NCBI GenBank assembly: GCA_028282325.1
Contig: JANQID010000077.1
Span: 1 to 64,000, forward strand
DNA: 64,000 bases
Direction of reading: 5' to 3'
DNA from: Chloroflexaceae bacterium
GTDB lineage: Bacteria; Chloroflexota; Chloroflexia; Chloroflexales; Chloroflexaceae
Shown in pieces: positions 10,569 through 21,436 of the stretch; position 1 is the first letter of the stretch; every line of letters starts with the position of its first letter. The translations under genes and the position numbers were made by a program. The notes beneath the pieces are model-generated. The model made no database searches. It was given only the letters and a program-made list of their open reading frames with translations, and was not told the origin of the DNA.

Positions 10569-11702
10569 ATGACCGCTAGCCTCGATCTCGCGCACAGCCA
10601 ACTCCGGCTACCGACATTCCTCCCCGACGCGACATTGGGAGTCGTGCGCGCCGCCGATTCGCGCGACCTGATCGAGGCGAAGATTCAGGCAGTGGTGATG
10701 AACGTCTTTCACCTGATGCAAAAACCGGGATCGTCCACAATTCAAGCGCTTGGTGGGCTGCACCGGATGGCAGCGTGGCCACAGCCGATCATCACCGATT
10801 CGGGCGGTTTCCAGGCCTATTCGCTGATTCGCCAAAACCCCAGGTTCGGTACGCTGAGCGACCAGGGGATCAGCTTCATTCCCGAAGGCGCCGAGCGCAA
10901 GTTCCAGCTTACGCCGGAGAAAAGCATTCAGTTACAGATCGCCTATGGCGCAGATGTCGCGATCTGCCTGGACGATTGCACCCACGTCGAGGCAAATCTC
11001 GCCGAGCAACAGGCATCGGTGCGACGCACGATCCAGTGGGGACGCCGCTGCAAGGCCGAGTTCGAGCGCCAGATCCAACAGCGCCGCCTCACGGCGGAGC
11101 AACGGCCACGGTTGTTTGGCGTGGTTCAAGGCGGCGGCCAGCGTGAACTGCGCCGGGCCTGCGCCGAAGCCCTTCTGGAAATCGGCTTCGATGGCTTCGG
11201 TTTTGGCGGCTGGCCGCTCGACGGCGCGGGCAATCTGTTGACGGATATGCTGGCCTATACGCGCGAACTCATACCGCCCGATCTGCCGATGCACGCGCTC
11301 GGTGTAGGCAAGCCCGAAAACGTGGTCGCTTGTACAAACCTGGGCTACAGCCTGTTCGATAGCGCGATGCCGACCCGCGACGCGCGCAACGGGCGGCTCT
11401 ATGCCTACACTGCCGATCCCGGAAACCCCCGCTTCCGGCTAACGGGAAACTGGCATACCTATCTCTACATCCACGACAAAAAACACATCAAAAGCGATGA
11501 GCCGATCTCACCCGGCTGCGATTGTCACACGTGCGCCGCCTATTCGCGCGGCTACCTCCACCACCTGCATCGTTGCGGCGAAACGCTGTTCTTCCGGCTG
11601 GCGACGATCCACAACCTGCGCTTTATGTCCCGGCTGATGGAGCTTCTGCAACAGCAAGCCGACGCCGATCCGGCACACGCGCAGAAGATCACACCACGCT
11701 GA
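10569..11702 (+). CDS. tRNA-guanine transglycosylase homologue with altered pocket loop
   Basis: This 377-residue protein is of the TGT (queuine/preQ1 tRNA-ribosyltransferase) superfamily. Visible family features are DSGGFQ (D77), the LDDCT motif (D135-C137) and VVQGG (Q187). The nucleophile motif FDSAMPTRDARNG is present (D264), as are the zinc ligands CDCHTC (C317, C319, C322) with H348. The family loop GGLAVGE, which lines the base pocket, is here FGGWPLDGAG (213-220): both glycines remain but Leu is replaced by Trp. All catalytic residues are present, so activity is likely, but the base or RNA substrate may differ from canonical bacterial Tgt. It ends 14 bp before an rRNA methyltransferase gene. 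Confidence 0.85.
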   Translation: MTASLDLAHSQLRLPTFLPDATLGVVRAADSRDLIEAKIQAVVMNVFHLMQKPGSSTIQALGGLHRMAAWPQPIITDSGGFQAYSLIRQNPRFGTLSDQGISFIPEGAERKFQLTPEKSIQLQIAYGADVAICLDDCTHVEANLAEQQASVRRTIQWGRRCKAEFERQIQQRRLTAEQRPRLFGVVQGGGQRELRRACAEALLEIGFDGFGFGGWPLDGAGNLLTDMLAYTRELIPPDLPMHALGVGKPENVVACTNLGYSLFDSAMPTRDARNGRLYAYTADPGNPRFRLTGNWHTYLYIHDKKHIKSDEPISPGCDCHTCAAYSRGYLHHLHRCGETLFFRLATIHNLRFMSRLMELLQQQADADPAHAQKITPR

Positions 11703-11716
11703 GCCGCGAGAACGCG

Positions 11717-12544
11717 ATGAACGCTTCCAGGCCAGAAACGCCAGACCAGATCGATCAACTGGTGCAAGCGGTGCAAAACAGTGCGAAGTATCGCACGATC
11801 AGCGCGGAGTTGATTCGCCGCATTGGCAGCCGCGAACTGGCGATACGGCGCAATCTCAAGACGGCGATCAAGGAGACGAAAAACAGGCTGCATCAGATTG
11901 CCGGAGCTTACCTGGACAAGCCGCCGCGCTACGCCGAATGGCTGGCGGCGCTCGAAGCGGCGGCGCGTAACGCGGATGCCACAGCGGTGCGTGCGACGTG
12001 CATTGACATTATGTCAAATCACACCTCAACCCGCGAGCGCGTCCCGATCCTGGCCGAGTTCTACGCCGCCCTGTTTGCGGCCATTCCGCCGCCGCAAGCG
12101 GTTATCGATCTGGCGTGCGGTCTCAACCCGCTCGCGCGCCCGTGGATGCCGCTGGCCCCAGACGTGACCTACCACGCCTGCGACATCTACATCGACCTGG
12201 CCACATTCCTCAACCGGAGTTTCACGATCCTGCAAACCCCCGGTGAGGCGCACGTCTGCGATCTCATCACTGCGCCGCCAACTCAGTGCTACGACGCGGC
12301 GTTCGTTTTCAAAACCCTGCCGGTTCTCGACCAGATGCACCAGGACGCCGGGCGCGATCTCCTGCGCGCGATCAACGCCAATGCCATCTTCGTCTCATTC
12401 CCGACCCGCAGCCTCGGCGGGCGCGCCCGCGGAATGCCCGCAAATTACGGCGAACGGTTCCGCGCCCTGGCCGCAGCCGAAGGCTGGTCGATCCAGGCAT
12501 TCGAATTCGCAACCGAGCTGGCGTTCCTGGTGCGGAAAGCGTGA
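11717..12544 (+). CDS. Putative 16S rRNA (guanine1405-N7)-methyltransferase, FmrO/ArmA/Rmt family
   Basis: This is a 275-residue protein with the full motif set of the aminoglycoside-resistance 16S rRNA methyltransferases. HTSTRER (102-108) is followed by EFYAALF and the SAM-binding motif I, DLACGLNPLARPWM (131-144). YHACDIYIDLATFLN, FKTLPVLDQM (198-207) and VSFPTRSLGGRARGM (226-240) follow. The N-terminal about 100 residues form the helical extension used for 30S recognition in the family. Members from aminoglycoside producers and resistant pathogens methylate N7 of G1405 in the A site. The ATG at 11717 is 14 bp after the TGT-like gene. No antibiotic biosynthesis, transposase or integron genes are nearby, so this looks chromosomal and native. 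Confidence 0.85.
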   Translation: MNASRPETPDQIDQLVQAVQNSAKYRTISAELIRRIGSRELAIRRNLKTAIKETKNRLHQIAGAYLDKPPRYAEWLAALEAAARNADATAVRATCIDIMSNHTSTRERVPILAEFYAALFAAIPPPQAVIDLACGLNPLARPWMPLAPDVTYHACDIYIDLATFLNRSFTILQTPGEAHVCDLITAPPTQCYDAAFVFKTLPVLDQMHQDAGRDLLRAINANAIFVSFPTRSLGGRARGMPANYGERFRALAAAEGWSIQAFEFATELAFLVRKA

Positions 12545-13565: not shown

Positions 13566-14315
13566 CTACACAACACCCGCGCCGCTCTGCACCAACGCCG
13601 TGTCCAGCACTTTCTGGAACGCATCCATATCGGCGTTGAGGTCGCGCAGACGATCGGCAACCTGGTTGCTGGACGAGTCATAGCTAACTGCATCAGCCGT
13701 CCGCAGACGCACCGTTTCGGCCAGCACATTATCGAGGTTAGCGTCGATATTCTGAAGCTGGGCGTTGATGCGCCCGATGTAGGTTCCCAGCGCCTGCGCG
13801 TTGCTCTGGCGATCCACCAGCGCTTTCCGCGTTTCCTGAAGCTGCTGGATCGTGTAGCTATCGGTGACGCGCGCAAGTTGTGCATCGATCTGGTCGATCT
13901 GACTACGCAACTGTTGATGATTGATGGTTGTCAGGTATTGCTCAATCACCTGGCCTTTGCGAGCCAACTCGTGGGCTTGCTCAACCAACTCGCCGGTCTG
14001 CTTAACAACTGGCTGGAGCAAACGCAACAGCGCCCCCTCGGTTCGCGCAACCGATTTTTCCACCTCGCGCTGTGAACGGTCGATCTCCTCGATGACCGCG
14101 CGGAAGGTCGGGCTGGTCAATCGCGCAAACGCCGCCGAACGTTGCGCCGACACTGCCAGCGATGGATCACGCGCCGCCAGAAACACCGCCGTGGCATACG
14201 CGAGCAAACCCACCGGCAACATCCAGATTGTGACGGTCAAACCTGTGAAGACGGCGGCTACCAGCACCATAAGCGCAAGCGGTTGCCGCGCTGCAAGCAA
14301 GACATTCTGCATCAT
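13566..14315 (-). CDS. Membrane protein with long coiled coil, unknown function
   Basis: This is a 249-residue protein. Two adjacent membrane segments (about residues 12-48) are followed by a soluble helical region of some 190 residues. That region is rich in Gln, Glu, Arg and Leu with heptad character (SQREVEKSVARTEGALLRLL, then HQQLRSQIDQIDAQLARV). No catalytic motif is seen. It lies about 175 bp downstream of the solute-binding/VWA lipoprotein gene on the same strand. The architecture is loosely like XpaC-type proteins, but this is not a firm assignment. AGGGG precedes the start. Confidence 0.6.
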   Translation of the reverse strand: MMQNVLLAARQPLALMVLVAAVFTGLTVTIWMLPVGLLAYATAVFLAARDPSLAVSAQRSAAFARLTSPTFRAVIEEIDRSQREVEKSVARTEGALLRLLQPVVKQTGELVEQAHELARKGQVIEQYLTTINHQQLRSQIDQIDAQLARVTDSYTIQQLQETRKALVDRQSNAQALGTYIGRINAQLQNIDANLDNVLAETVRLRTADAVSYDSSSNQVADRLRDLNADMDAFQKVLDTALVQSGAGVV

Positions 14316-14491
14316 CACCCCTGATTCTGGCTATTTCAGAGCCGGGAGCCGAGAACTGCGGCGCTTCCGCCCGTCTTGCAGCCTTCCGCCCCAACCCATA
14401 ACATCTCAGCACAACATCTGTCTGCAACGTAACGAACCATCGACCGGACCAGTCTCACAAAAAGACCGGCCCGATCTCTTCAGGCAACCGA

Positions 14492-16189
14492 TTAGAAGAA
14501 CGTCGCGATGTCGCGATACACTTGCTCAATCCGGGTCGGATCGCTCGTATACGTCTTCGCGCCCGACGCATCGGCAATGTCACGCATCAAATCGGTATCA
14601 ACATCGCTTCCCGTACCGTAGGCGATCGTAAAAACCTTGATGCTGCGTCCTTCCGAATTGGCGCTCAAGAGTTGGGTAAGCTGTTGCGATGTGTTCTCAC
14701 TGCGGTTATCAGCGCCGTCGCTGAGCACCACGATGGCCCGGATGCGCTCATCCGACGGAAGTAAGTTCATCTGCTGATACGCCTCGAACACGGTGTCGAT
14801 CAAGCGCGTATTGCCGTTCGCAAACAGGTTGTCAACGCGTTGGAGCACTTCCTCGCGCTTGGCGCCCAGCGGCCCCAGCGGCGTCAACTCATTCGCATCG
14901 CTGCTGAACACGATGATTCCCAGGCTGTCTTCATCGGACAATTGTTCGATGAACGAACGCAACGCGCGTTTCGCCTGCACCAGGCGGCCTTCGTCGTTCA
15001 TACTGCCCGACACGTCGAGCAAGACTTGTACCTCGACCCGCTTCTTGTTTTGCCCCCACAATTCACGGATCGCCTGTGTCACCTCGGCATCCGGCACTTC
15101 CAGCAACGTCTGCGGCTGATTGGGGTCCACGCCATTCTCGGCAGTCAGCGGAGCAATGATCGAAATCGACGGATCGGAGGGGCGAAAACCGAACTGCAGT
15201 GCTTGCTGTTGCTGTTCGGTCGCCAGGAGAAATTCGCGATACGTCTCTGCTGCCGCGCTCAACTCAGCATCAACCCAGGGCGCATCGAGAACCACGCAGG
15301 GATGATCGCTCCAGAACGTCCCCTCTTTGGGATAGATCGCAACCACCGGCAGCGGTCGATTCGGGTATGTGGTCTGATCGTACGATTCAACCACCAGATT
15401 TTCGTACAACACCGCTGCCGACAGATAAGACGGGCCGCGGTTGAACATCTGGCGACCGAAGAAGCCGGTACTCTCGCCATAGTGAATAATACTGCGCTCG
15501 ACATCCGCCAGGAACTCGGCCACGTCGGGTTGCTGGACATCGGTGATCGTCAGATCTCGCGTCTTGCCGGTAGCCGCATACACGGTTGCCAGAATGCTGG
15601 TGATGCCGCTGTTGCTATAGTCAGGGTGCGTATGCCCGAACTGGAACGGCCCCCACTCCGGATGCCCGAAATCGGCCCAAGTCTGGTTGCTGCGGGTCAA
15701 ATCGGCGATGTCGCCCCATCCAATCGGCGTCTGGGGCCACCCCAGAGCTTCGGCCATCGGCTGCCACATCGCGATCACCACCGGGCTGAGCACCAGGGCC
15801 GGCGGCGTCCCGTCAAACAGCTTCGCGCCGCCGTTATCGCTGGCCCAGCGTTGGTTCGCAATCGGGAGCAAAATGCTGCTGGCCGGGCTCCAGATCGCCG
15901 GCTGGTCCTGGCCGCTGAGAATGCGCTCCATCGAGTCCGCCGAGCCAGCCGGTTCCGCTTCAACGAAGATAGGCCTACCGCCCGTCGATTCAAGCTGACG
16001 GGCGTTAAAATCCGCCGTGACAGCTTCGATCCACGATTCCTTCTCGCTGCCATAGAGCATCTTCACGACCAGGGCGCTGCTGGGCGCTGCGCTTTGACCG
16101 CCGTTGCCATTCCCATTCCCATCATCGCCGCACGCCGCCAGCAAAGCGCCCACCAGCGCTACAAGTATGAAGAAACTGATACGTCGCAT
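14492..16189 (-). CDS. Solute-binding and VWA domain lipoprotein
   Basis: This is a 565-residue lipoprotein with lipobox LLAAC (Cys20) and a Gly/Asn linker. A type-2 periplasmic-binding-protein-like domain covers about residues 38-385, with YGSEKESWIEAV at its start, then SPASSILLPI and FGHTHPDYSNSGITS. A von Willebrand factor A domain covers about 390-565, with the complete metal site DVSGSM and later VVLSDGADN. It shares SPASSI, FGHT and SNSGI motifs with the next gene upstream, showing paralogy. It lies 8 bp downstream of that gene and is probably co-transcribed with it. The ligand is unknown; the VWA part suggests protein-protein contact at the cell surface. Confidence 0.85.
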   Translation of the reverse strand: MRRISFFILVALVGALLAACGDDGNGNGNGGQSAAPSSALVVKMLYGSEKESWIEAVTADFNARQLESTGGRPIFVEAEPAGSADSMERILSGQDQPAIWSPASSILLPIANQRWASDNGGAKLFDGTPPALVLSPVVIAMWQPMAEALGWPQTPIGWGDIADLTRSNQTWADFGHPEWGPFQFGHTHPDYSNSGITSILATVYAATGKTRDLTITDVQQPDVAEFLADVERSIIHYGESTGFFGRQMFNRGPSYLSAAVLYENLVVESYDQTTYPNRPLPVVAIYPKEGTFWSDHPCVVLDAPWVDAELSAAAETYREFLLATEQQQQALQFGFRPSDPSISIIAPLTAENGVDPNQPQTLLEVPDAEVTQAIRELWGQNKKRVEVQVLLDVSGSMNDEGRLVQAKRALRSFIEQLSDEDSLGIIVFSSDANELTPLGPLGAKREEVLQRVDNLFANGNTRLIDTVFEAYQQMNLLPSDERIRAIVVLSDGADNRSENTSQQLTQLLSANSEGRSIKVFTIAYGTGSDVDTDLMRDIADASGAKTYTSDPTRIEQVYRDIATFF

Positions 16190-16196
16190 ACTTCAA

Positions 16197-17393
16197 TTAC
16201 CTCTGATAGTTTTTGCGTCGCCAGAGATTAAGCAACTCGTTGAGCACACTCGCCGAGGGGGTCTCGACGATCTGCGGAATATCAATCTGCACGCCGTAAT
16301 CTTTGTATTTGTTGAACGGATTGTTCGGATCGTCGGTCACGATCGGAACGGACGGGTCTGCCGGGCGAAAACCATATTGCAACGCCAACGCCTGCGTGTC
16401 CGGCGCAAGCAAGAAATCGCGGAAGAGGGCCGCGGCTTCGCGCTCCTCAGGTGTAACCCACTCGGCATTCAAGATTGCGTAGGGGTGGTCGCTGAGAATA
16501 TTCCCCGGCGGATAATAAATGCGGATCGGCTGGCCCCATTTGCCCCGCGCATTCTCGATGCTGCCGTCAAGCGCCAGACTCTCGTAGACCGCAACAAAAT
16601 CATATTTGCCAGGCCCGAAATTGACCATATTGGTCATAAACGTACCGGTGCTATCGCCAAACTCCTGCACCGAATTCTCGATTGCGTCCAGCCACTGCTG
16701 GAACTCGGCATTGGTTATGTCGCCGCTCGCCAGGCCGGAGGTTTTGTCATAATAGCCGTAGGATAGCAAAACCAGCGTCTGGATGCCGCTATTCGACGTT
16801 TCAGGCGACGTATGGCCAAACTTCACAAACCCCCAGTTTTCATCGCCGCCTAGTCCTTTCCAGCCTTCCTCGTTGGCCAGCGCATCATGAATACTATCCC
16901 AGAATTCCGCCGACCCGTTCGGCCAGAGGACCTGCGCGCGCTCTTCCCACATCACCAGCACCAGCGGCGTCAACACCAGCGGCTGGGGCCCATCGGCGCC
17001 GCTATAGTAGATATCGCCGCCATAGCGCGTCTTCCAATCGTCGCGCAGCAGTTCGATCTGAATGGAACTCGCCGGACTAACGACTGTCGGCATCAGATCG
17101 CCCTGAGCGATGCGTGTCACCATTTCGCGTGAGCCAATCCCCTGCAAATTGATTTCGATCGGGCGGCCCCGTACACGCGGATTCGTTGCCAGAAAGCGCT
17201 CCGCGGCCTCGTTCAGCCAGGCCTTTTTCTCAGTGCCATAGGCAACGCTGATCACCACCGGCTCGCCGGCCGGGCCGAGCATCGGCAGTTGAAACGGTGC
17301 AGCGCCTACAGGGCCGATAAACAACGTGATGAGGATCAGCACCAGCGCGAGGCCAAGATAACCGGCAGAAATGATCTGTGAGAGGCGGGTCAT
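16197..17393 (-). CDS. Solute-binding-like exported protein
   Basis: This is a 398-residue exported protein with a hydrophobic N-terminal anchor or signal (about 8-34) and one type-2 solute-binding domain (from VISVAYGTEKKAWLNEAAERF). Motifs shared with the downstream paralogue are SPASSIQIELL, FGHTSPETSNSGIQT and ILSDHPYAILNAEWV. There are no ABC permease or ATPase genes beside it, so a transport role is doubtful and a sensing or surface role is possible. GAGGGAGAG precedes the ATG at 17393, which is preferred over 17414. A strong promoter-like region lies just upstream. Confidence 0.8.
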   Translation of the reverse strand: MTRLSQIISAGYLGLALVLILITLFIGPVGAAPFQLPMLGPAGEPVVISVAYGTEKKAWLNEAAERFLATNPRVRGRPIEINLQGIGSREMVTRIAQGDLMPTVVSPASSIQIELLRDDWKTRYGGDIYYSGADGPQPLVLTPLVLVMWEERAQVLWPNGSAEFWDSIHDALANEEGWKGLGGDENWGFVKFGHTSPETSNSGIQTLVLLSYGYYDKTSGLASGDITNAEFQQWLDAIENSVQEFGDSTGTFMTNMVNFGPGKYDFVAVYESLALDGSIENARGKWGQPIRIYYPPGNILSDHPYAILNAEWVTPEEREAAALFRDFLLAPDTQALALQYGFRPADPSVPIVTDDPNNPFNKYKDYGVQIDIPQIVETPSASVLNELLNLWRRKNYQR

Positions 17394-17426
17394 AACTCTC
17401 CCTCGTAACAACACAGGAATAGAGTC

Positions 17427-17475
17427 ATTATATACCGGAACGAGTGTATTACGGGAATATTAAGAGTGGATTAAG
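17427..17475 (-). promoter_or_regulatory. Three 11-bp-spaced direct repeats plus perfect TATAAT
   Basis: On the minus strand CTTAAT occurs at 17475-17470 and 17464-17459, and CGTAAT at 17453-17448; each is exactly 11 bp from the last. A perfect TATAAT follows at 17432-17427, 34 bases before the ATG at 17393. No good -35 hexamer is visible; the repeats sit in its place. This is the layout of an activator-dependent promoter bound by an OmpR/PhoB-family regulator. The first repeat overlaps the stop codon of the upstream gene. Confidence 0.5.
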
Positions 17476-19147: not shown

Positions 19148-21436
19148 CTACCTGACTGCTATCGGAATGAATACCACATACTGATCGATCACCATACCTT
19201 TCGATACAGTCGCAGTCGGGGTGAGCGAGGGCGTCAGCGTCGCGGTGGGAGTAGATGTCGGCATCAGTGTCGCGGTGGGAGTAGATGTCGGCGTCAGCGT
19301 CGCGGTGGGAGTGGATGTCGGCGTCAGTGTCGCGGTGGGAGTGGATGTCGGTGTCAGCGTCGCGGTGGGAGTGGATGTTGGCATCGGCGGCAGCGGCAAC
19401 GACGGCTCATTTTGCATCACTATGCAGGGCAAATCGGCTATATCTTCACGCGCCCATTCAGCAGCCATCAAGTTATAGCCATCCTGATTGGGATGCAAGT
19501 CGTCAGAAAACCTATCGCTTTCGCCTTCAAAGAGCGTATAAAAATCGGGCCCGACACGCACGCGTTGGTCGTTCTGCTCCACGACTATGGTAGGTATACT
19601 CGTATTATACTCAGCCGTTCGGGTTTTATAGAGATCTTGATCAGGTCGGTTCCTCCATGGAATGCGTGCAACCCAGATATTTAGATCCGGATTAGGGTCT
19701 TGGAGGGAGTCGATCACTCCGCCAAGCTGCGGACTCCACGTCGTTACAGGAATATTATCGCTTACATCGTTGGTTCCAATCTGCAATAGCACATACGCCG
19801 CGCCATATCGTTGTATAAACCCGTTGTATGCATCCACTTTCGCCTGCAGGTTCCTATCTCCTTCTCCCGCAGTACGCGCACCCGAAAATCCCGCGTTGAG
19901 AATAAAGGCCGGCGCGCTGCCGCAACTGGTTAACGCAGGATTGAGACTCACTTGATAACTGCGGTAGTACTCATCACCAGTGTATGCATTATTGTCATAT
20001 TGATAGATATTGCGACGATCCGGGCTATGCTCAGGCGAGCGCTCATAGCTATCTACCGGATAATTGGCGTCGCCAACACCTACTTGCGACCCGCCATACC
20101 CCGCCGTGATCGAGTCGCCGATGCTCAGAAAGACGCGGCCCAGACTAATCGTCTCGATACTGTCGTTTGGTATCTCGCTCAGTCGATTCCCGTTCGCGTC
20201 GATTACATATCCATCGAGTCGGTGATCACCGCGGGGAGCAAGGGTGAAGACAGCTTGAAGCATCTCGCCCGGCGCACCGAAGACGCGTTGAATGACATCG
20301 CCATCAATCACAAAATCGACCCCAGCGCCGGCGCCTTGAAAGCTGGCAGTCGTCGTGAATTGTTGCGCCGATTGAATGTAGGGTATGCGAAATGTGTCTG
20401 AGAGCGTTTCTGTTCCCCCAGCGTCAGGCATATTCGCATCAACAACTAACCATCCGTTCTCATCCAGATCCTGGCCGGCAATTCCCAGGCTGAGCGACAA
20501 TGGTGGCGGATCATTCGTAATCTCAAAGACATTCGCCCCTGGCGGCAACAAATGAAGGTATTGTAATGTAAGAATTCGGGTGACGGGATTCCAATCAGCG
20601 AGATAATCTTGACCGTCGACGAGTATAGTGCTTCCTCGTCGTACGGTCAGGTCGGCGCCTGGCCATTCGCCAATGACGAAGCGCGGTTGGCGCAACCCTC
20701 CATCAGAAGGTATTTGCAGATGTAAGTTCGGATCCTCCGATGCTTGCACCCGCAGAACATGTTGTTGAGGATCATACTGAAGCGCATCCCCAGGAGGTGA
20801 TGAGCTTCCCTGCACTGTTGTAATCTGCACGCCCGGGTCAGGCGTCCATGCGTTGAGGAAGAGCATAGCTTGATGCGCGGAAACTGGCGTCTGTCCATCC
20901 GCAGGCTCTGCAACCGAAAGAGCAGCGCCGATTGTAGCGCCCGATCGGCGATGGAGCGTGGTAACTACATCTGCCGGCCCCTCGATAGAGACCGCCACCT
21001 GATCGCCTGCCCAGATGACATACTCCATCATAAACTCTTCCAGTAACCATCCAGCCCGTCCCTCCCAGACGACGCGAACGTAAACCGGCGTTTGCTCACG
21101 GATGGACAGCGTACCACGCAGCAATGCGCCGCCATTAAGCTTATGCTCAAGCAGGTGCGCCTCCGGCTCAACGAGATTCGCTTGCTGTTCAGGATCGCGA
21201 CGAAGATCATACCAGGCAACAATGCCCATATCGTCAAGGCTCAACGCAAAGCGTCCAGGCGATGTCACCTGCAGAACTGACGAGTCGTCCCGTTGTATCT
21301 CTTCAACCACCAGGCCTGAAGCTGAAGGAGGCAGGAGGTTGGTCGCAACGACTGTTGTCCGAAGCCTTAATGGTAAGATAGCAGCTAAAACCAGAAGCGC
21401 CGCAAGGATAGAAATATAGCTGGTTCGATGGTGCAT
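19148..21436 (-). CDS. Secreted SGNH/GDSL-hydrolase-like protein with Thr/Pro repeats
   Basis: This is a 762-residue exported protein with an N-terminal hydrophobic signal. About 430 residues of beta-rich sequence follow. The SGNH-hydrolase-like domain starts at FLSIGDSITAGYGG (block I Ser). LQIGTNDV supplies the Gly/Asn blocks and SDDLHPNQDGYNLMA the Asp/His block. A tail of repeated TSTPTATLTP units follows and the protein ends in VVFIPIAVR. The catalytic triad is complete, so esterase or acetylhydrolase activity on a surface glycan is plausible. The substrate is not known. Confidence 0.82.
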   Translation of the reverse strand: MHHRTSYISILAALLVLAAILPLRLRTTVVATNLLPPSASGLVVEEIQRDDSSVLQVTSPGRFALSLDDMGIVAWYDLRRDPEQQANLVEPEAHLLEHKLNGGALLRGTLSIREQTPVYVRVVWEGRAGWLLEEFMMEYVIWAGDQVAVSIEGPADVVTTLHRRSGATIGAALSVAEPADGQTPVSAHQAMLFLNAWTPDPGVQITTVQGSSSPPGDALQYDPQQHVLRVQASEDPNLHLQIPSDGGLRQPRFVIGEWPGADLTVRRGSTILVDGQDYLADWNPVTRILTLQYLHLLPPGANVFEITNDPPPLSLSLGIAGQDLDENGWLVVDANMPDAGGTETLSDTFRIPYIQSAQQFTTTASFQGAGAGVDFVIDGDVIQRVFGAPGEMLQAVFTLAPRGDHRLDGYVIDANGNRLSEIPNDSIETISLGRVFLSIGDSITAGYGGSQVGVGDANYPVDSYERSPEHSPDRRNIYQYDNNAYTGDEYYRSYQVSLNPALTSCGSAPAFILNAGFSGARTAGEGDRNLQAKVDAYNGFIQRYGAAYVLLQIGTNDVSDNIPVTTWSPQLGGVIDSLQDPNPDLNIWVARIPWRNRPDQDLYKTRTAEYNTSIPTIVVEQNDQRVRVGPDFYTLFEGESDRFSDDLHPNQDGYNLMAAEWAREDIADLPCIVMQNEPSLPLPPMPTSTPTATLTPTSTPTATLTPTSTPTATLTPTSTPTATLMPTSTPTATLTPSLTPTATVSKGMVIDQYVVFIPIAVR
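19231..19380. repeat. Minisatellite, five 30-bp units
   Basis: Five consecutive units of exactly 30 bp, differing at one to three positions, encode TSTPTATLTP-type decapeptides. A degenerate partial unit flanks it on the low-coordinate side. The repeat is in frame and lies in the tail of the SGNH-hydrolase-like gene, so copy-number change would alter linker length without a frameshift. Confidence 0.9.

Follow-up and report, generated by a model that had tools for sequence, protein, structure and literature searches.

The window, by which the whole analysed stretch of 64 kb is meant, is part of contig 118 in a genome of 4.6 Mb and 140 contigs. In agreement with the original prediction, a solute-binding protein (SBP), a second binding protein joined to a VWA domain (SBP-VWA) and a coiled-coil membrane protein (CC) are encoded there on the minus strand, preceded by a putative promoter region, as follows.

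17446..17475 (-): Pho-box-like array CTTAATCC-act-CTTAATAT-tcc-CGTAATAC, three repeats with an 11-bp period, upstream of the SBP start
17427..17432 (-): putative -10 element TATAAT, read from the sequence, 13 bp past the third repeat
17396..17404 (-): putative ribosome-binding site GAGGGAGAG, read from the sequence, ahead of the SBP ATG at 17393
17393-16197 (-): SBP, 398 aa, with N-terminal signal/anchor; SBP_bac_11 (PF13531) 72.5 bits, 5.7e-20
16189-14492 (-): SBP-VWA lipoprotein, 565 aa; VWA_3/VWA_2 52.7/51.3 bits, SBP_bac_11 35.2 bits
14319..14491 (-): 173-bp gap that separates SBP-VWA from CC and contains a weak terminator-like hairpin at 14485-14469
14318-13566 (-): CC, two-TM helical/coiled-coil protein, 250 aa; no Pfam family reaches the cut-off

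The gap ahead of CC exceeds that in most relatives, and because of this unusual length and the weak hairpin, expression of CC might be partly uncoupled from the upstream genes in this genome. Terminator-like sites in the region (5 found, 3.6 expected) show no clear excess over shuffles. The window also holds an FmrO-type rRNA methyltransferase family gene (11522-12544, plus strand; PF07091, 213 bits), of a family known for aminoglycoside resistance and here present in an environmental member of the Chloroflexota, and a gene for an SGNH-hydrolase-like secreted protein of 762 aa (19148-21436, minus strand), with a tract of TLTPTSTPTA repeats and a hydrophobic tail at its C-terminal end.

The two binding proteins had been predicted to be paralogues, one of them carrying a metal-site VWA domain, and both points hold. 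SBP and SBP-VWA align over residues 38-381 (36% identity, E 2e-57), and both exceed the PF13531 cut-off and so belong to the type-II solute-binding proteins. SBP-VWA consists of the lipobox LLAAC, an SBP part (residues ~38-384) and a VWA part (~384-565) with the metal-site pattern DxSxS...T...D, and its complete MIDAS (D392, S394, S396, T461, D491) is identical in 52/52 homologues. The SNSG motif of SBP and its residues S248, T249, G250 and E271, which are pocket-like, are conserved in 35/35 homologues, and the pocket-like motifs SPASS, SNSG, STG, YE and SDHP are near-invariant in both paralogues.

When the AF2 model of SBP-VWA (pLDDT 91) was compared with the PDB, the top match was the sulfate-binding protein 5um2 (Z 29.2, rmsd 3.2, 299 aligned). 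The nearest SBP folds were sulfate-binding proteins (Z 29.2, 28.2, 27.5), a thiamine-binding protein, the glucose-6-phosphate binders AfuA and 6lkg, the latter of which we take to be HptA, and P5PA (pyridoxal-phosphate); thiamine aside, their ligands are oxyanions or phosphate-bearing compounds. HptA is a precedent of an SBP that serves sensing by a two-component system. With these sulfate/molybdate-type and phosphate-ester binding proteins (Sbp 1sbp, AfuA, HptA 6lkg) the window proteins have the type-II SBP fold in common (Z 25-29), but they are only about 12-18% identical to them, are without permease and ATPase, and have one copy joined to a VWA domain. Fold neighbours and near-invariant motifs taken together, the best guess for the ligand would be an oxyanion or a phosphorylated compound. 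A second, divergent SBP-VWA paralogue of about 545 aa, often divergently transcribed, adjoins the operon in five Chloroflexales loci (L015, L016, L019, L020, L022). Other SBP_bac_11 genes of this genome (G000:C28, L112 780-7866) adjoin permease-like and nitrogenase-like (NifB/E/N-looking) genes and probably serve molybdate uptake.

The VWA domain is closest to those of inter-alpha-inhibitor, BatB and calcium-channel alpha2delta. Alpha2delta and the VWA-Cache proteins likewise combine an extracellular MIDAS VWA with a small-molecule-binding domain, a likeness in working only: their binding domain is a Cache domain, whereas it is an SBP fold here, and sequence kinship is limited to the VWA. Such neighbours, together with the lipobox on SBP-VWA and its probable surface location, would also suit surface assembly or adhesion, with the SBP folds as dead scaffolds, the VWA domain bound to wall or matrix and CC as inner-membrane anchor. 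A dead scaffold would have no need of near-invariant pockets, however, and the pocket-like residues of both SBPs are near-invariant across phyla, which counts against this explanation; we consider it unlikely.

For CC, the expected coiled-coil membrane protein, the AF2 model (pLDDT 90) displays two helices of TM length (13-29 and 31-49) followed by an all-helical domain, which is predicted from charge and hydropathy to be cytoplasmic. Aligned by hhalign with the hairpin coiled-coil protein of the PspA-AAA operons described below, CC reached 96.2% (E 2e-9); profile comparison with PspA gave only 0.6%, by which CC was ruled out as a PspA homologue. Structure searches returned generic helical matches only and were discarded as a route to the fold identity of CC: Foldseek found no match under 1e-3 for the model, and the top VIA-align match (Z 13.8, to designed helical proteins) falls within the noise for helical bundles where an ESCRT-III/PspA/Snf7 fold is asked for.

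A search for SBP-VWA loci through 84,980 genomes returned 79 loci, and co-occurrence was assessed in a sample of 100 related genomes, 62 of them with the SBP family and 54 with CC. The SBP family was present in every one of the CC-bearing genomes (54/54; Fisher p 4.6e-20). CC genes stand downstream of SBP and/or SBP-VWA on the same strand in 51/56 cases, mostly within 200 bp; the layouts among the 56 were SBP, SBP-VWA, CC in 27, SBP, CC in 18 and SBP-VWA, CC in six. Where SBP stood directly beside CC (the 18 cases), SBP-VWA was usually encoded elsewhere in that genome. Within Chloroflexota, to which all the closest homologues belong, the order SBP, SBP-VWA, CC is nearly constant. Outside this phylum, a CC homologue adjoins SBP-VWA in Myxococcota and in the actinomycetotan Miltoncostaea (E 5e-21), and weaker versions of the core were seen in Streptomyces (weak CC homologue) and Deinococcus (by architecture). 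The Streptomyces protein, annotated by PGAP as 'substrate-binding and VWA domain-containing protein', shows this domain architecture too, at 32.5% identity over 94%, and is followed by the weak CC homologue; its annotation gives no function. Kept gene order and co-occurrence thus strongly support, at the level of the genomes, that SBP, SBP-VWA and CC form one genetic module, as had been proposed. No described SBP-VWA system was found in open-licence papers, and as far as these show, the module is uncharacterised, which agrees with its having been called poorly described.

Several neighbours recur in part of the relatives. Genes of the GPP34 (Golgi phosphoprotein 3) family abut the operon in Chloroflexota (L035 4077-4727, L037 8421-9059, L039 5553-6209), and PlsC-type acyltransferase genes lie near it (L038 8460-9035, also L042, L048 and L069), 3' of CC in several Anaerolineae loci; few in number, these neighbours are compatible with a membrane-lipid context. 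A PhoB-type response regulator gene directly follows CC in L031, L043 and L047, with PstSCAB next in L031. The regulator, Pst, GPP34 and acyltransferase genes are occasional neighbours that run in the operon's direction. Two-component genes in general appeared to be frequent neighbours, but by a rough estimate they are no more so than the genome-wide background, and their frequency was not counted as evidence.

The promoter had been described as regulated, and with three repeats at 11-bp spacing and a TATAAT it looks so. Repeats of CTTAACCT with 3-bp linkers constitute the cyanobacterial Pho box, which the window array matches (PMC1906773). The sequence-level mark of the Pho regulon, 8-bp direct repeats with an 11-bp period at a promoter, is present, and the spacing from the repeats to the TATAAT would resemble that of activated Pho promoters. 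In the 64 kb the exact motif YTTAAYN5YTTAAY occurs at a single site (17459-17475; 0.02 expected), and 18/21 pstS genes examined in related genomes have the window motif upstream at 11-12 of 12 positions. Scored with a PWM built from pst promoters only, the window promoter reached 22.7 bits and ranked first of 55 SBP promoters; with the pst-derived PWM it also topped each of the 273 upstream regions used as controls (p 1e-6 overall, 9e-9 AT-matched). A second exact site in this genome (G000:C1:40050-40066; L114, L155) lies upstream of a phosphonate transporter operon of the phnC-phnE-phnD type, whose phnC exceeds the TIGR02315 cut-off, while genome-wide the exact motif has 6 distinct sites versus 4 in the reversed control. 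The pst operon of this genome reaches a contig end. Across relatives the Pho box is patchy (missing in L017, L018 and L019). Its enrichment persists with SBPs merged at 80% (p 4e-5) and 70% identity (p 0.002) and is gone at 60% (1/15 clusters); upstream of the operons outside Chloroflexota no Pho box was recognisable. Judged from its promoter sequence, the window operon is probably under phosphate control in this genome. Another triple Pho-box-like array (G000:C48:39053-39080) stands about 110 bp ahead of the gene for a binding lipoprotein of the oligopeptide type (SBP_bac_5).

Phosphate control could also mean accessory uptake, in which Pho-induced extra binding proteins would pass phosphate or phospho-compounds to a Pst or Phn transporter encoded elsewhere. 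Besides the Pho box at the SBP promoter, PstC/PstA encoded in this genome and the phosphonate transporter behind the same motif are in line with this, as is PstSCAB directly downstream of CC in a few loci (L017, L031). However, PstC-type genes occur in 90/100 relatives whether or not the module is present and almost never beside it, only 2/56 CC genes lying within about 5 kb of one; pst operons of relatives have their own pstS, and both the VWA fusion and the obligate pairing with CC are atypical of shuttle SBPs. We therefore hold accessory uptake to be rather improbable. The original prediction had assumed a system without a transporter and named a dedicated, co-conserved ABC transporter as the finding that would speak against it. 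No ABC ATPase signature was detected in any open frame of the 64-kb window, the conserved neighbourhoods contain no permease or ATPase as a binding-protein-dependent ABC importer would, most relatives agree in this, and PstC is not co-conserved with the module. By this genomic evidence the module is not an ABC importer, and sensing rather than uptake is plausible. A role within a TelA/XpaC toxic-anion system, for which the earlier suggestion of such genes nearby is the one point in favour, was rejected: TelA is absent from this genome, versus matches in 3/14 control genomes, and we give this next to no credence.

More can be learned from Acidobacteria, Verrucomicrobia and others (organism names as in the MAG records), where SBP-VWA and then SBP are followed by a PspA-family protein (PF04012, 39.5 bits), next a hairpin helical protein and last an AAA ATPase of 550 aa. 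The CC homologue is accompanied by PspA and/or dual AAA in seven loci (L052, L056, L059, L060, L062, L065, L067). The N-terminal half of the long AAA protein has no Pfam AAA match. A search with this protein exceeded 850 bits in 7/9 such genomes tested, sometimes elsewhere in the genome, and found a divergent copy (293 bits) in an eighth; it found none in Granulicella (L059), three Chloroflexota and one Polyangiaceae genome. Three more distant operons (L105-L107) encode a PspA-like protein, an SBP (NMT1-like) fused to OmpA, a hairpin protein and a dual AAA; their hairpin protein compares at 98.4% with those of the Acidobacteria/Verrucomicrobia-type operons and at 67.7% with CC, there in the hairpin part only. 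A separate VWA protein is encoded near two of the three, and in L106 a VWA gene and a DnaJ-domain gene lie next door.

Resembling L105-L107, operons with PspA, a Snf7 protein with TM, a dual AAA whose first copy is inactive and a PBPB-OmpA protein have been described (Ravi et al. 2024, PMC11237479), with no mention of vWA in the main text. To judge from gene order, their 'Snf7 with TM' would correspond to the hairpin protein reported here. Our module shares with those operons a coiled-coil protein with a TM hairpin as well as a secreted SBP, and the SBP/SBP-VWA operons outside Chloroflexota further share PspA and a long, half-unmatched AAA like the dual AAA; the Chloroflexota version, in contrast, is without PspA/AAA, has its SBP fused to VWA instead of OmpA, lacks an ABC permease and possesses a Pho-box promoter. 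Among the parts of the PspA and AAA operons, the window contains the TM hairpin coiled-coil component, and neither PspA nor the dual AAA. The single PspA of this genome lies on contig C46 among unrelated genes, and for the dual AAA only partial AAA-domain matches of FtsH/CDC48-like size were obtained in the genome. An operon-type PspA was absent from 61 relatives in a search run without positive control, ordinary PspA being present in the own genome.

That VWA and AAA share an operon outside Chloroflexota, and that a weak cobaltochelatase VWA match exists, might point to an AAA + VWA pair of the MoxR/chelatase type that inserts a metal or a cofactor. Yet the AAA is cytoplasmic while the lipoprotein with the VWA domain is secreted, the AAA looks like one of the CDC48/FtsH type and not like MoxR, and no such AAA occurs in this genome, which makes this explanation very unlikely.

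As far as sequence can establish it, an SBP predicted to lie at the surface and a lipoprotein, SBP-VWA, whose MIDAS is intact are genetically tied to a putative membrane-hairpin helical protein, with a PhoB-type site upstream. Our preferred explanation, to which we assign about even chances, is a surface sensor that phosphate starvation induces and that probably detects an oxyanion or phospho-ligand, acting on the membrane via CC and not importing. PhoB would induce the operon under phosphate limitation, and both SBP domains would bind a ligand outside the cell, an oxyanion or a phosphorylated compound, whereupon the VWA domain may make a metal-dependent, ligand-controlled contact either with the other surface partner or with the cell wall. 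The hairpin of CC would relay this state to the inner leaflet, and there the helical domain of CC could act as, or recruit, a membrane scaffold; in other phyla the inner arm would be completed by a PspA-family protein and the dual AAA ATPase. Because of this completion, the most likely output, by analogy, would be a local remodelling of the membrane, or stress protection, and not import, and since the Chloroflexota lack this PspA subtype and the dual AAA partner, remodelling as an output is borrowed from other phyla. A wider version, in which the surface SBP/SBP-VWA pair reads a phospho-ligand across phyla and drives an inner-leaflet scaffold (the hairpin coiled coil, with PspA/AAA in some phyla) in an ESCRT-III-like remodelling under nutrient control, is a speculative and doubtful extension. 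The module is best called a Chloroflexota variant in a family of secreted-SBP and hairpin-coiled-coil operons.

Of the earlier interpretation, the single system and the missing transporter stand and the TelA/XpaC link falls; the Pho-box promoter, the PspA and dual-AAA operons elsewhere and the GPP34/acyltransferase neighbours in some relatives go beyond it. Binding proteins are nearly always interpreted as transporter components, but here about 60% of the sampled relatives, and members of several phyla, carry a transporter-less module containing them. It joins two rarely linked fields, phosphate-starvation control and membrane remodelling of the PspA/AAA type, and offers a directly testable gene set for cultured Chloroflexota.
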